From: an uncultured Ilyobacter sp.
Lineage (GTDB): Bacteria > Fusobacteriota > Fusobacteriia > Fusobacteriales > Fusobacteriaceae
NCBI RefSeq assembly: GCF_963668085.1
Contig: NZ_OY764059.1
Coordinates: forward strand, 1,984,001-2,048,000
Direction of reading: 5' to 3'
DNA length: 64,000 bases
The position numbers were made by a program, and so were the translations under genes. Positions 29,324-56,825 of the stretch are shown one piece after another; the first letter of the stretch is position 1, and each line of letters opens with the position of its first letter. The notes under the pieces are model-generated. The model had not been told where the DNA came from. It saw nothing but the letters and a program-made list of their open reading frames with translations, and did no database searches.

Positions 29324-30541
29324 TCACTTTATAACCTTTACTATTTTTTTCTTTCCTGCTCTTACTACCATTCCATCCTCTATCTTTATAACTGCCTTTA
29401 GGTCTTTTACCGCTTCATCATTTATCTTGAATCCACCCTGACTTATCAGTCTTCTGGCTTCAGAGGTAGACTTAAGAAACATCAGCTCTCTTACCAAAAG
29501 ATCTATAGCACTGACTTCATCTGCATCTATTTTTACCTCAGGAAGGTCTACAGCCATATTTCTGTTGGAAAATACATTTTCAAACCACTCTCTGGCCTGT
29601 TTTCCCTTTTCTTCAGAGTGATAAATTTTTACAATCTCTTCTCCGAGTCTTTTTTTACAATCCATAGGGTGAATTGTCCCATTCGCAACTCCCTCTTTTA
29701 AGGATTCGATCTCTTCTAATGATACATCTGTCGCAACTTCATAATAATTCCACATTAACTCGTCAGATACGGACATTACCTTACCAAACATATCGTTAGG
29801 TGCCTCTGTCACCCCTATATAGTTCCCGAGGGATTTTGACATCTTTTCTACTCCGTCAAGTCCTACAAGAATAGGCATCATCATGCACACCTGCTGCTGC
29901 TGTCCGGCATTTTTCTGAAGGTCCCTTCCTCTTAATATATTAAACTTCTGTTCTGTGGCTCCAAGCTCCACGTCTGCCTCTATAGCCACAGAGTCATACC
30001 CTTGAAGGATTGGATACATGAACTCCACAAGAGATACAGGTTTCCCCTCACTGAGCCTTTTAGAGAAGTCTTCCCTCTGAACCATCTGGGCCACTGTAAA
30101 CTGAGAAAGAAGCTTCAGTACATCTTCAAGAGAAAGTTTCTCAAGCCAGTCTCCGTTATACACAACTTCTGTTTTTTCAAGATCAAGAATAAGCTTTACC
30201 TGCTCAAGATAAGTCTCTATATTTTTCTGTATATCTTCGGCGCTCAGCATCTTTCTAGTTTCAGATTTCCCTGTAGGATCGCCTATCCTTGCTGTGAATG
30301 TTCCTATCAAAAACTTCACTCTGTGTCCTAGATCCTGAAACTGTCTAAGCTTTCTAAGGGGAACTGCGTGCCCTATATGAAGGTCTGAGCCTGTAGGGTC
30401 TATCCCTAGTTTTACAACCAAAGGCTTCCCAGTTTCCAAGGATTTTTTTATTTTATCTTCTAGTTCTCTTTCAGAGATTATCTCCTCTACACCCCTTTTT
30501 AGGATCTCCATCTGTCTTTTTACCTCTTGTTCCATATTCAT
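29324..30541 (-). CDS. tyrS: Tyrosyl-tRNA synthetase
   Basis: This class I synthetase charges tRNA-Tyr. The 405-residue protein has HIGH in GSDLHIGHAVPL, KMSKS in VEKMSKSLGNYI, and a C-terminal S4-like RNA-binding domain (about residues 340-405). Two nearby ATGs (30545 and 30539) are possible; GGGAG is 3 bases from the first and 9 from the second, so the second is used. Upstream lies a leader with a tyrosine-rich small frame and a terminator (30574-30795), suggesting control by tyrosyl-tRNA supply. No T-box motif is present. Confidence 0.95.
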   Translation of the reverse strand: MNMEQEVKRQMEILKRGVEEIISERELEDKIKKSLETGKPLVVKLGIDPTGSDLHIGHAVPLRKLRQFQDLGHRVKFLIGTFTARIGDPTGKSETRKMLSAEDIQKNIETYLEQVKLILDLEKTEVVYNGDWLEKLSLEDVLKLLSQFTVAQMVQREDFSKRLSEGKPVSLVEFMYPILQGYDSVAIEADVELGATEQKFNILRGRDLQKNAGQQQQVCMMMPILVGLDGVEKMSKSLGNYIGVTEAPNDMFGKVMSVSDELMWNYYEVATDVSLEEIESLKEGVANGTIHPMDCKKRLGEEIVKIYHSEEKGKQAREWFENVFSNRNMAVDLPEVKIDADEVSAIDLLVRELMFLKSTSEARRLISQGGFKINDEAVKDLKAVIKIEDGMVVRAGKKKIVKVIK

Positions 30542-30573
30542 AAACATACACTCCCTTCACAATTTTTATAATT

Positions 30574-30604
30574 AAAAAACCCCATAGGATGCACCTATGA
30601 GGCT
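30574..30604 (-). terminator. Attenuator terminator in the tyrS leader
   Basis: AGCCTCATAGG pairs with CCTATGGGGTT around TGCAT, followed at once by six T on the minus strand. It stands 33 bases before tyrS. An upstream TGAGG (30620-30624) can pair with CCTCA of the 5' arm and so compete with the terminator. Confidence 0.8.
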
Positions 30605-30690
30605 CATATATACTAAACTTTCCTCAACCATAGATACAGACCCTTTTTTATCATCACAAATTAGGTCTATACTTTAAAGTACAGCCCTTT

Positions 30691-30738
30691 TTAATGGTAA
30701 TAATAATAGTATCCGTTATAGTTGATTTTTTTATTCAT
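30691..30738 (-). CDS. Tyrosine-rich leader peptide of tyrS
   Basis: A 16-codon frame reads MNKKINYNGYYYYYH then stop: 6 of 15 residues are tyrosine, five of them consecutive. GGAGG lies 6-7 bases before the ATG, and a good promoter lies just upstream. Four bases after the stop a hairpin (30664-30687, GGGCTGTAC with GTATAGACC) begins. The second arm can instead pair with GGTCTGTA (30635-30642). The terminator before tyrS follows. This is the layout of ribosome-mediated attenuation: scarce tyrosyl-tRNA would stall the ribosome on the Tyr codons and change the fold. The reading frame and signals are directly visible; the mechanism is inferred. Confidence 0.82.
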   Translation of the reverse strand: MNKKINYNGYYYYYH

Positions 30739-30766
30739 TTTTTCCTCCAAGATCAAATCATAAGAA

Positions 30767-30795
30767 AGTATATCATATTATATTAAAACTCTCAA
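30767..30795 (-). promoter_or_regulatory. Promoter of the tyrS leader
   Basis: TTGAGA (30790-30795) and TATACT (30767-30772) are 17 bases apart on the minus strand, overlapping the end of the GNAT gene. RNA would start about 22 bases before the leader-peptide ATG. Confidence 0.78.
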
Positions 30796-31268
30796 GACTT
30801 GAGTTTTTTTACGTAAAGAAGGTGCTCTATCCCGTGATAATCCTCTACTTTTTCAAATATAAAACCTGATTTTTCAAAGGTTTTAATAGAAGCCTCATTC
30901 TCCTCCAGAATATAGCCTAAAACTATCTCTATATTTTCACAAGACAAAGCCAGTTCTTTTATACCTTTTAAAATAGCGGCTTTTCCCATGCCTTTTCCCC
31001 TGCTTGACTTTGACATATATATACTCAATATAGCGGTTTGCCCGTCAAGTTCGAACTTAAGCTGACCCAAAAACTTACCCTTTGAATCTTCTAAAACATA
31101 AAGTAGGAAGTAGGGAGATTTTATGAGAAATTTATACCACTTTTTATGATTTTCCCACTCTTGTTTCTCATTTTCTGTATAATACTTTTTCACATAATCC
31201 TTGTGAAGATGCTCATATATTTCGGGTATATCACGTTCTTCTGCTCTTCTCAAAACAACATCTTTCAA
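30792..31268 (-). CDS. GNAT-family N-acetyltransferase
   Basis: The 158-residue protein has the GNAT pattern: a central beta sheet with LGQLKFELDGQTAILSIYMSKSSRGKGMGKAAIL, where RGKGMGKA is the acetyl-CoA phosphate loop. Later come the helix and strand of ENEASIKTFEKSGFIFEKVEDY. It resembles RimJ/RimL or sugar-amine acetyltransferases; the substrate is unknown. The start is TTG with AAGGTG upstream. It is monocistronic, with a promoter at 31327. Confidence 0.85.
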   Translation of the reverse strand: MKDVVLRRAEERDIPEIYEHLHKDYVKKYYTENEKQEWENHKKWYKFLIKSPYFLLYVLEDSKGKFLGQLKFELDGQTAILSIYMSKSSRGKGMGKAAILKGIKELALSCENIEIVLGYILEENEASIKTFEKSGFIFEKVEDYHGIEHLLYVKKLKS

Positions 31269-56687: not shown

Positions 56688-56754
56688 CGTTTCTTCCTCC
56701 TATTCCGAAAATTTATATATTTGTTGATATAACAACCAACTAAACACTTTCTTC

Positions 56755-56825
56755 GGCATGCCCTGATCAGATCAGGTCGTGGCCCTACGGCTCAACATGC
56801 CTTTACAGTACCTGATATCAGTACT
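56755..56825 (-). promoter_or_regulatory. Structured RNA segment between rpmJ and rpsM
   Basis: Three inverted repeats are visible: GGCATG (56755-56760) with CATGCC (56796-56801), CCTGATC/GATCAGG (56762-56776) nested inside, and AGTAC/GTACT (56807-56825) around TGATATCA. No T-run follows, so it is not a terminator. Its place before rpsM matches the E. coli S4-binding leader of the alpha operon, though no sequence homology is claimed. Confidence 0.55.

Follow-up and report, generated by a model that had tools for sequence, protein, structure and literature searches.

How the gene for tyrosyl-tRNA synthetase, tyrS, is controlled in a fusobacterium is the question raised by the short leader that precedes it in the window, that is, in the whole stretch of 64,000 nucleotides analysed here, which is part of G000, a Fusobacteriota genome of 3.10 Mb in three contigs. 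In Firmicutes, tyrosyl-tRNA synthetase genes are usually under T-box control, and in Bacillus the tyrS T-box brings about antitermination under tyrosine starvation. The preliminary description of this locus proposed that tyrS is controlled here by an attenuator with a leader peptide rich in tyrosine codons. Our analysis leads to the same reading: tyrS is very probably controlled by ribosome-mediated transcription attenuation in response to charged tRNA-Tyr, as suggested, at the level of sequence, by Tyr-run leaders in relatives, compensatory changes in the antiterminator and the lack of a T-box match at the leader.

All leader elements and tyrS itself lie on the minus strand of the window, and the parts of the attenuator are in place (Table 1). 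The promoter, the Shine-Dalgarno sequence and the frame with six tyrosine codons were found as first described, and the gene is indeed tyrS by its profile matches. The preceding ORF (30792-31268) ends inside the -35 hexamer of the leader promoter. In a 2.3 kb region around the leader there are 9 promoter-like sites against 7.3 expected, a count that alone is not above chance, and 6 terminator-like sites against 1.2 expected. A -10 element of the form TGnTAnnnT ahead of the leader ATG was seen again by eye in the relatives inspected, less clearly in loci L084 and L071. The alternative hairpin arms that had been noticed are also present, since GGGCTGTAC (30687-30679) pairs with GTATAGACC (30672-30664), and the latter has an alternative partner in GGGTCTGTAT (30643-30634). 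The core of segment D, TGTATCTATGG (30638-30628), pairs with E, with C or with A, its partner within E being TCATAGGTGCA (30600-30590). The terminator has a stem of 12 pairs (30605-30577) and a U-run that ends at 30574; its presence was confirmed, while the distance of 33 bases to tyrS given for it holds if the gene starts at ATG 30541. The longest tyrS ORF begins at the first ATG, 30547, but because G042, a genome of the same genus, and G043 both read ATA at this position, ATG 30541, 33 bases past the U-run, is the likelier start.

Table 1. Features of the tyrS leader and gene, in positions of the window
Feature	Position	Strand	Remarks
Promoter TTGAGA-17-TATACT, for leader and tyrS	30767..30795	-	Extended -10, TG ahead of the -10 hexamer
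GGAGG, Shine-Dalgarno sequence of leader ORF	30744..30748	-	Five bases ahead of ATG 30738
Leader ORF MNKKINYNGYYYYYH-stop, 15 codons, 6 Tyr	30691..30738	-	Kind conserved in relatives
Segment A, leader Tyr codons	30720-30718 and 30711-30697	-	
Segment B, GGGCTGTAC	30679..30687	-	Right behind leader stop codon; pairs with C
Segment C, GTATAGACCT	30663..30672	-	Partner is B or D
Segment D, GGGTCTGTATCTATGGTTGAGG	30622..30643	-	Partners are E (antiterminator), C or leader codons A
Segment E, terminator 5' arm (30605-30594) and loop	30590..30605	-	
Segment F, terminator 3' arm (30588-30577) and U-run	30574..30588	-	
tyrS, tyrosyl-tRNA synthetase	29324..30541	-	TIGR00234, 401.7 bits; Pfam tRNA-synt_1b

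A frame of this kind might be a chance ORF in AT-rich DNA next to an ordinary constitutive terminator, and the promoter count given above as well as the composition of the genome would allow for it. Five tyrosine codons in a row match twice in the 3.1 Mb genome, both strands counted together, one match being the tyrS leader, compared with three matches of the reversed control pattern; for four codons there are 45 matches, two of them in the tyrS leader, compared with 49 for the control. Since the reversed pattern is as frequent, Tyr-codon runs are not rarer genome-wide than composition gives. Of the 43 other four-Tyr matches 20 were inspected, and two of these fall within a small ORF that has a Shine-Dalgarno-like site ahead of it; no terminator was seen by eye after either ORF. 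The comparative data, however, speak against chance. Type-I tyrS was found in 51 of the 98 genomes of the phylum (P0001 search, E up to 1e-60), and 57 of the 61 genomes of the window's family have a tyrS (TIGR00234), 15 of type I and 42 of a divergent type. Up to 450 bases upstream of the gene were compared at 92 loci (51 type I and 41 of the 42 divergent), counting as leaders ORFs of 6-40 codons with an ATG start, a Shine-Dalgarno-like site and at least three consecutive Tyr codons. A run of at least three was present in 20 of the 92 regions and a run of at least four in 12, as opposed to 9 and 0 of 5520 dinucleotide shuffles under the same criterion and to none of the 92 reverse strands for runs of either length. 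For amino acids other than Tyr, runs of at least three were most numerous for Leu, with five, and none of these amino acids had a run of four in any of the 92 regions. On the run-of-four counts against shuffles and the reverse strand we reject the chance ORF, whose probability we regard as negligible. The 92 regions include the shortened stretches L026, L063, L068 and L084 as well as L012, which ends at a contig end 7 bases before its match; L039, L040, L055 and L056, which cover no more than the beginning of tyrS and gave no tblastn match, were replaced by the longer stretches L130-L133, and G051, whose tyrS begins at a contig end, was left out.

The occurrence of a Tyr run in close relatives, on which the preliminary description had made its proposal depend, was borne out in 13 of the 14 readable type-I regions of the window's family (L012 not counted), with leaders in genera g1, g8, g9, g10, g13 and g14, each of the 13 having GGAGG, AGGAG or GAGG just ahead of its ATG. 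The type-I family locus L019 (G058) has no Tyr leader, and none was found in the 36 type-I tyrS regions from other families, one of which (L026) is 74 bases long. Genus g14 supplies six of the 13 type-I leaders, and these are nearly identical, so that the independent unit is the genus; counted in this way, there are six independent genera for type I and two or three (g5, g6, perhaps g11) for the divergent type. Before divergent tyrS genes Tyr leaders were present at 7 of 41 loci and are unrelated to the type-I leaders; a further divergent-type leader, MLLYYYYYYSNSDLY of L084, is reached from a TTG start and stands outside the 20. At three loci of genus g6 (L061, L062 and L066) a short TTG-start ORF upstream of tyrS was seen by eye to resemble a truncated TyrS N-terminus, followed by DYRYC.

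The leaders of g5 and g6 also share a conserved NNVF/IxTxS stretch ahead of the Tyr run, as would be expected if the leader acted not through codon supply but through a stall specific to the peptide sequence, similar to TnaC or ErmC, or through translational coupling. Between genera, however, the leader sequences vary widely except for the Tyr run, and both terminator and antiterminator sit between leader and gene, which leaves the coupling or peptide-specific mechanism improbable.

Direct reading of uncharged tRNA-Tyr by a T-box riboswitch is suggested by the gene, as the accessible text of PMC2494555 gives the T-box as the usual tyrS device of Firmicutes, and by the window's own genome, in which three weak T-box matches, two of them close together, lie at G000:C2:81267-83719 (64-67 bits, cut-off 93). 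At the leader itself (30500-30860), by contrast, there was no T-box match even at E 10, and an Rfam scan of the leader returned neither a T-box nor any other family at its cut-off. A search across the phylum, with stricter filters that can lose weak matches, yielded 28 T-box places in 21 of the 98 genomes, 2 of them above the cut-off and none at a tyrS place. A T-box at this leader was thus rejected, and we consider it extremely unlikely, while the genome as a whole may use both T-box and leader-peptide devices. Elsewhere in the window, at 56749-56808 on the minus strand, an S4-Fusobacteriales ribosomal protein leader (RF03133) was detected above its cut-off.

The pairing alternatives of the attenuator were examined in 21 leaders, and both the folding and the compensatory changes that had been named as checks came out in its favour. 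The window's leader RNA folds better than its shuffles (z -5.08, 0 of 200), the RNA from ATG to terminator beats shuffles at p <=0.05 in 20 of 21 leaders, a hairpin ahead of a T run could be assigned in all 21 (a count without a null), and the leader stop codon is 101-139 bases from the U-run in 18 of the 19 leaders listed and 68 bases from it in L023. In 10 of the 13 type-I leaders, leaving out the three near-identical g14 leaders L014, L015 and L017, 88 of 100 cells of the D:E antiterminator are paired, and 46 of 50 in its core, compared with at most 59 of 100 and 24 of 50 in slid registers, which are the only control for a register that was set by hand and chosen for pairing, and is thereby favoured. 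The hand-set register was used because whole-leader MAFFT alignments put segment D wrongly in several genera. The helix is kept with compensatory changes, D8:E3 being A-U in five sequences and G-C in five, and at D10:E1 six sequences have G-C, three have A-U and one has no pair. The energy of the D:E duplex gave p values of 0.030-0.152 against shuffles in 19 of 21 leaders (9 at <=0.05) and was no better than shuffles in L011 (p 0.65) and L087 (p 0.78). A strong C:D duplex of -7 kcal/mol or better was present in 18 of 21 leaders, the values for C:D, like those for B:C, being best duplexes without a null. In the fold of the ribosome-free RNA, D also pairs with the leader codons A.

From this anatomy a mode of action can be proposed. 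A ribosome would load at GGAGG and translate the leader. With ample tyrosine it would complete the leader and leave, whereupon A and C would take up D, the terminator E:F would form and transcription would end before tyrS. When Tyr-tRNA is scarce, the ribosome would halt on the Tyr codons and cover A, so that D would be free to pair with E, no terminator would form and tyrS would be transcribed. In 19 of the 21 leaders E, the terminator 5' arm, was less paired upstream with the real leader codons than with shuffled ones, in 8 of them at p <=0.05; the effect was opposite in L084 (p 0.99). Masking of the RNA by a ribosome stalled on the Tyr codons raised upstream pairing of E relative to the ribosome-free RNA in 19 of 21 leaders, by at least 0.3 in six of the 21 and by at most 0.05 in nine including the tie L084, and lowered it in L044. 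(For the energy and masking tests the terminator arm of L072, first drawn too long, was reset by hand.) When a ribosome at the stop codon was compared with a stalled one, availability of D changed in the expected direction in g1, g9 and slightly in g8, not as expected in g10, g13 and g14, and in the opposite direction in the divergent-type loci L074, L076, L083 and L087; pairing of E changed as expected in g1, g13 and five of the six g14 leaders and not as expected in g8, g9, g10 and L044. As stop-codon and stalled ribosomes are not cleanly told apart in this way, it is from the anatomy that we infer the direction of the switch, together with stalling at the Tyr codons and the response to tyrosine.

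The leader RNA also matches RF04312, the 'trpB motif', a strong riboswitch candidate in the literature, at 30673-30568 (40.6 bits, E 1.4e-4), and it could accordingly be a ligand-binding riboswitch of this or a similar type with an incidental small ORF. However, 40.6 bits falls short of the curated family cut-off of 59, and membership by score was rejected; furthermore, the codon run is amino-acid specific and is kept while the RNA sequence changes. The sub-threshold matches in the phylum mostly stand behind leaders whose codons, for His, Tyr, Thr, Leu or Trp, vary along with the gene downstream, which likewise points away from a riboswitch and renders it an improbable explanation for the tyrS leader. 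At E up to 0.01 there are 69 RF04312 matches in 46 of the 98 genomes, with none of the 98 genomes above the cut-off. Directly upstream of 47 of the 69 is a small ORF with a run of at least three His, Tyr, Leu, Thr or Trp codons, and of 39 a run of four or more, as compared with 63 and 6 of 6900 shuffles, respectively; this test, of six residues, allowed ATG, GTG and TTG starts and a looser Shine-Dalgarno set than the tyrS test.

The 47 runs consist of 34 His, 9 Tyr (counting the mixed aromatic leader L186), 2 Leu, 1 Thr and 1 Trp, and by eye they mostly fit the downstream genes: His runs precede family-3 solute-binding proteins and HisZ-like proteins, Tyr runs tyrS and AgcS-type symporters, the Thr run thrS, a Leu run an SNF-family transporter and the Trp run TrpX. 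Scans of the downstream proteins of ten representative loci passed curated NCBIfam cut-offs for thrS (L181), PutP (L162), TrpX (L161), AgcS (L177, L194) and DAHP synthase (L003), and a broad NCBIfam cut-off for the SNF protein (L189), while HisZ (L159) and the TrpX of L200 were below theirs. The solute-binding protein of L137 falls into a general Pfam family only, so that the name 'histidine transporter' comes from the codons alone. The remaining 22 matches lack such a run, but in nine of them the leader residues were judged by eye to suit the gene, as with FWYFYYF before DAHP synthase (L141), QPIPPR before PutP (L162, L178) and single Trp codons ahead of the TrpX genes of L147 and L161; in the other 13 there is no fitting leader. 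Five-Tyr-codon leaders stand before AgcS-type sodium:amino-acid symporters in L177, L194, L195 and L202, which suggests that these symporters carry tyrosine. In the window's own genome the leader L003 (G000:C2:476290-476406, minus), MTSQNFTNWYFYYYFRN, has Trp, Tyr and Phe codons before DAHP synthase and ends terminator-like, with similar leaders in L141 and L186, and in I. polytropus an ORF beginning MMAKFTWWWQNK precedes a TrpX-like ABC substrate-binding operon at a locus that matches neither RF02863 nor RF04312 at E up to 0.01. Comparable switches that respond to other amino acids appear to exist in related bacteria. A further small ORF of the window's genome, MFRLTITTTIIIM at L005 (G000:C3:829886-829987, plus), has a thrL-like Thr/Ile run before a terminator-like hairpin, about 450 bases past which an ORF reads like aspartate-semialdehyde dehydrogenase. 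The trpB gene was seen in two of the seven genomes of genus g6, by eye close behind another gene, and a scan of genome contigs for the trpB consensus gave one match, in Neptunitalea.

Outside Fusobacteriota two Lactobacillales loci on plasmid records were considered. In S. suis (L224:1119-1181) a leader ending TYFYGYFR-stop, and in E. gallinarum (L225:1159-1387) one ending AYFSYFR-stop, each stand before an ABC solute-binding gene. The E. gallinarum RNA is Rfam RF02863, 'Enterococcus sRNA 2410' (89.5 bits, cut-off 61), the match to which starts inside the leader codons, and a search of plasmids for more copies of the Enterococcus element found only itself; the S. suis locus matches neither RF02863 nor RF04312 at E up to 0.01. 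In its accessible text, PMC4448216 proposes riboswitches for aromatic amino acids ahead of ABC transporters and of aroFBC-tyrA, and from their resemblance the S. suis and E. gallinarum loci would appear to be the elements meant there. Taken together, Fusobacteriota may possess phylum-wide modular leader-peptide attenuators (Tyr, His, mixed aromatic, Thr, Leu, Trp, Pro) of a shared design in which the codon run alone sets specificity, and RF04312, streptococcal gbs1262 and gbs2033, and RF02863 may be the RNA bodies of such attenuators rather than riboswitches. We offer this joint reading tentatively, at somewhat less than the even chance that we first gave it, because the RF04312 cut-off was reached at none of the loci examined in the phylum or in Lactobacillales, and because the S. 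suis locus is matched by neither of the two Rfam models. If true, it would explain why the genes behind these orphan candidates vary, and the codon run would name transporter substrates, with the AgcS-type symporter, for example, as a tyrosine carrier.

The attenuator reading extends amino-acid attenuation to tyrosine and tyrS, and to a phylum in which our literature search found no leader peptide described; it places the device before two divergent types of tyrS. The preliminary description had known of none for tyrS in this lineage, and neither a Tyr leader peptide before tyrS nor any Fusobacteria leader-peptide attenuator was found described in the accessible portions of the literature searched (full text, with few subscription journals). 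Work by Lopatovskaya et al. 2010, reportedly on attenuation across bacteria, could already list such cases. Leaders of the tyrS type offer a direct way to test whether an orphan riboswitch candidate should be reclassified, and some such candidates may be attenuators of this design; in addition, leader codon runs could predict the substrates of unassigned amino-acid transporters.

Among known systems, the trp, his, leu and pheST attenuators of Proteobacteria and Actinobacteria share with the tyrS leader a short ORF of cognate codons, an alternative antiterminator and an intrinsic terminator, but the tyrS leader senses Tyr, controls tyrS and sits in Fusobacteriota. An aminoacyl-tRNA synthetase gene is the target here as it is for pheST and for Streptomyces trpS and leuS (as far as given in the accessible text of PMC1262725), and a stem built partly of leader codons is likewise reported, in what is available of PMC2659441, for Shewanella leuA. 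The 'trpB motif' RF04312 (PMC11109978) and S. agalactiae gbs1262 (PMC4448216), which in our interpretation would be the same element, are described in the parts of these papers available as a P1 hairpin followed by a terminator, with the antiterminator in the right shoulder of P1 as in the present leader; they differ from it in that they were proposed as riboswitches, in that the match here is under the cut-off and in that the leader ORF lies outside the Rfam model. According to the same portion of PMC11109978, the trpB motif is found in both Firmicutes and Fusobacteria, with an amino-acid ABC transporter as the most frequent gene behind it, and the paper leaves room for a classic attenuator. 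In Firmicutes, his genes have His leader peptides (PMC2965389, PMC9413887, each in its accessible part) that are, like the tyrS leader, attenuators beyond Proteobacteria and Actinobacteria, the only two phyla in which, as PMC2965389 states, leader peptides had been shown before it added Firmicutes; they have three to five consecutive His codons (PMC9413887) and differ from the tyrS leader in amino acid and phylum. The Bacillus tyrS T-box controls the same gene but reads the tRNA directly, and a T-box was not found at the window's leader. The attenuator design is a known one, and what is new is the amino acid (Tyr), the gene (tyrS) and the phylum.
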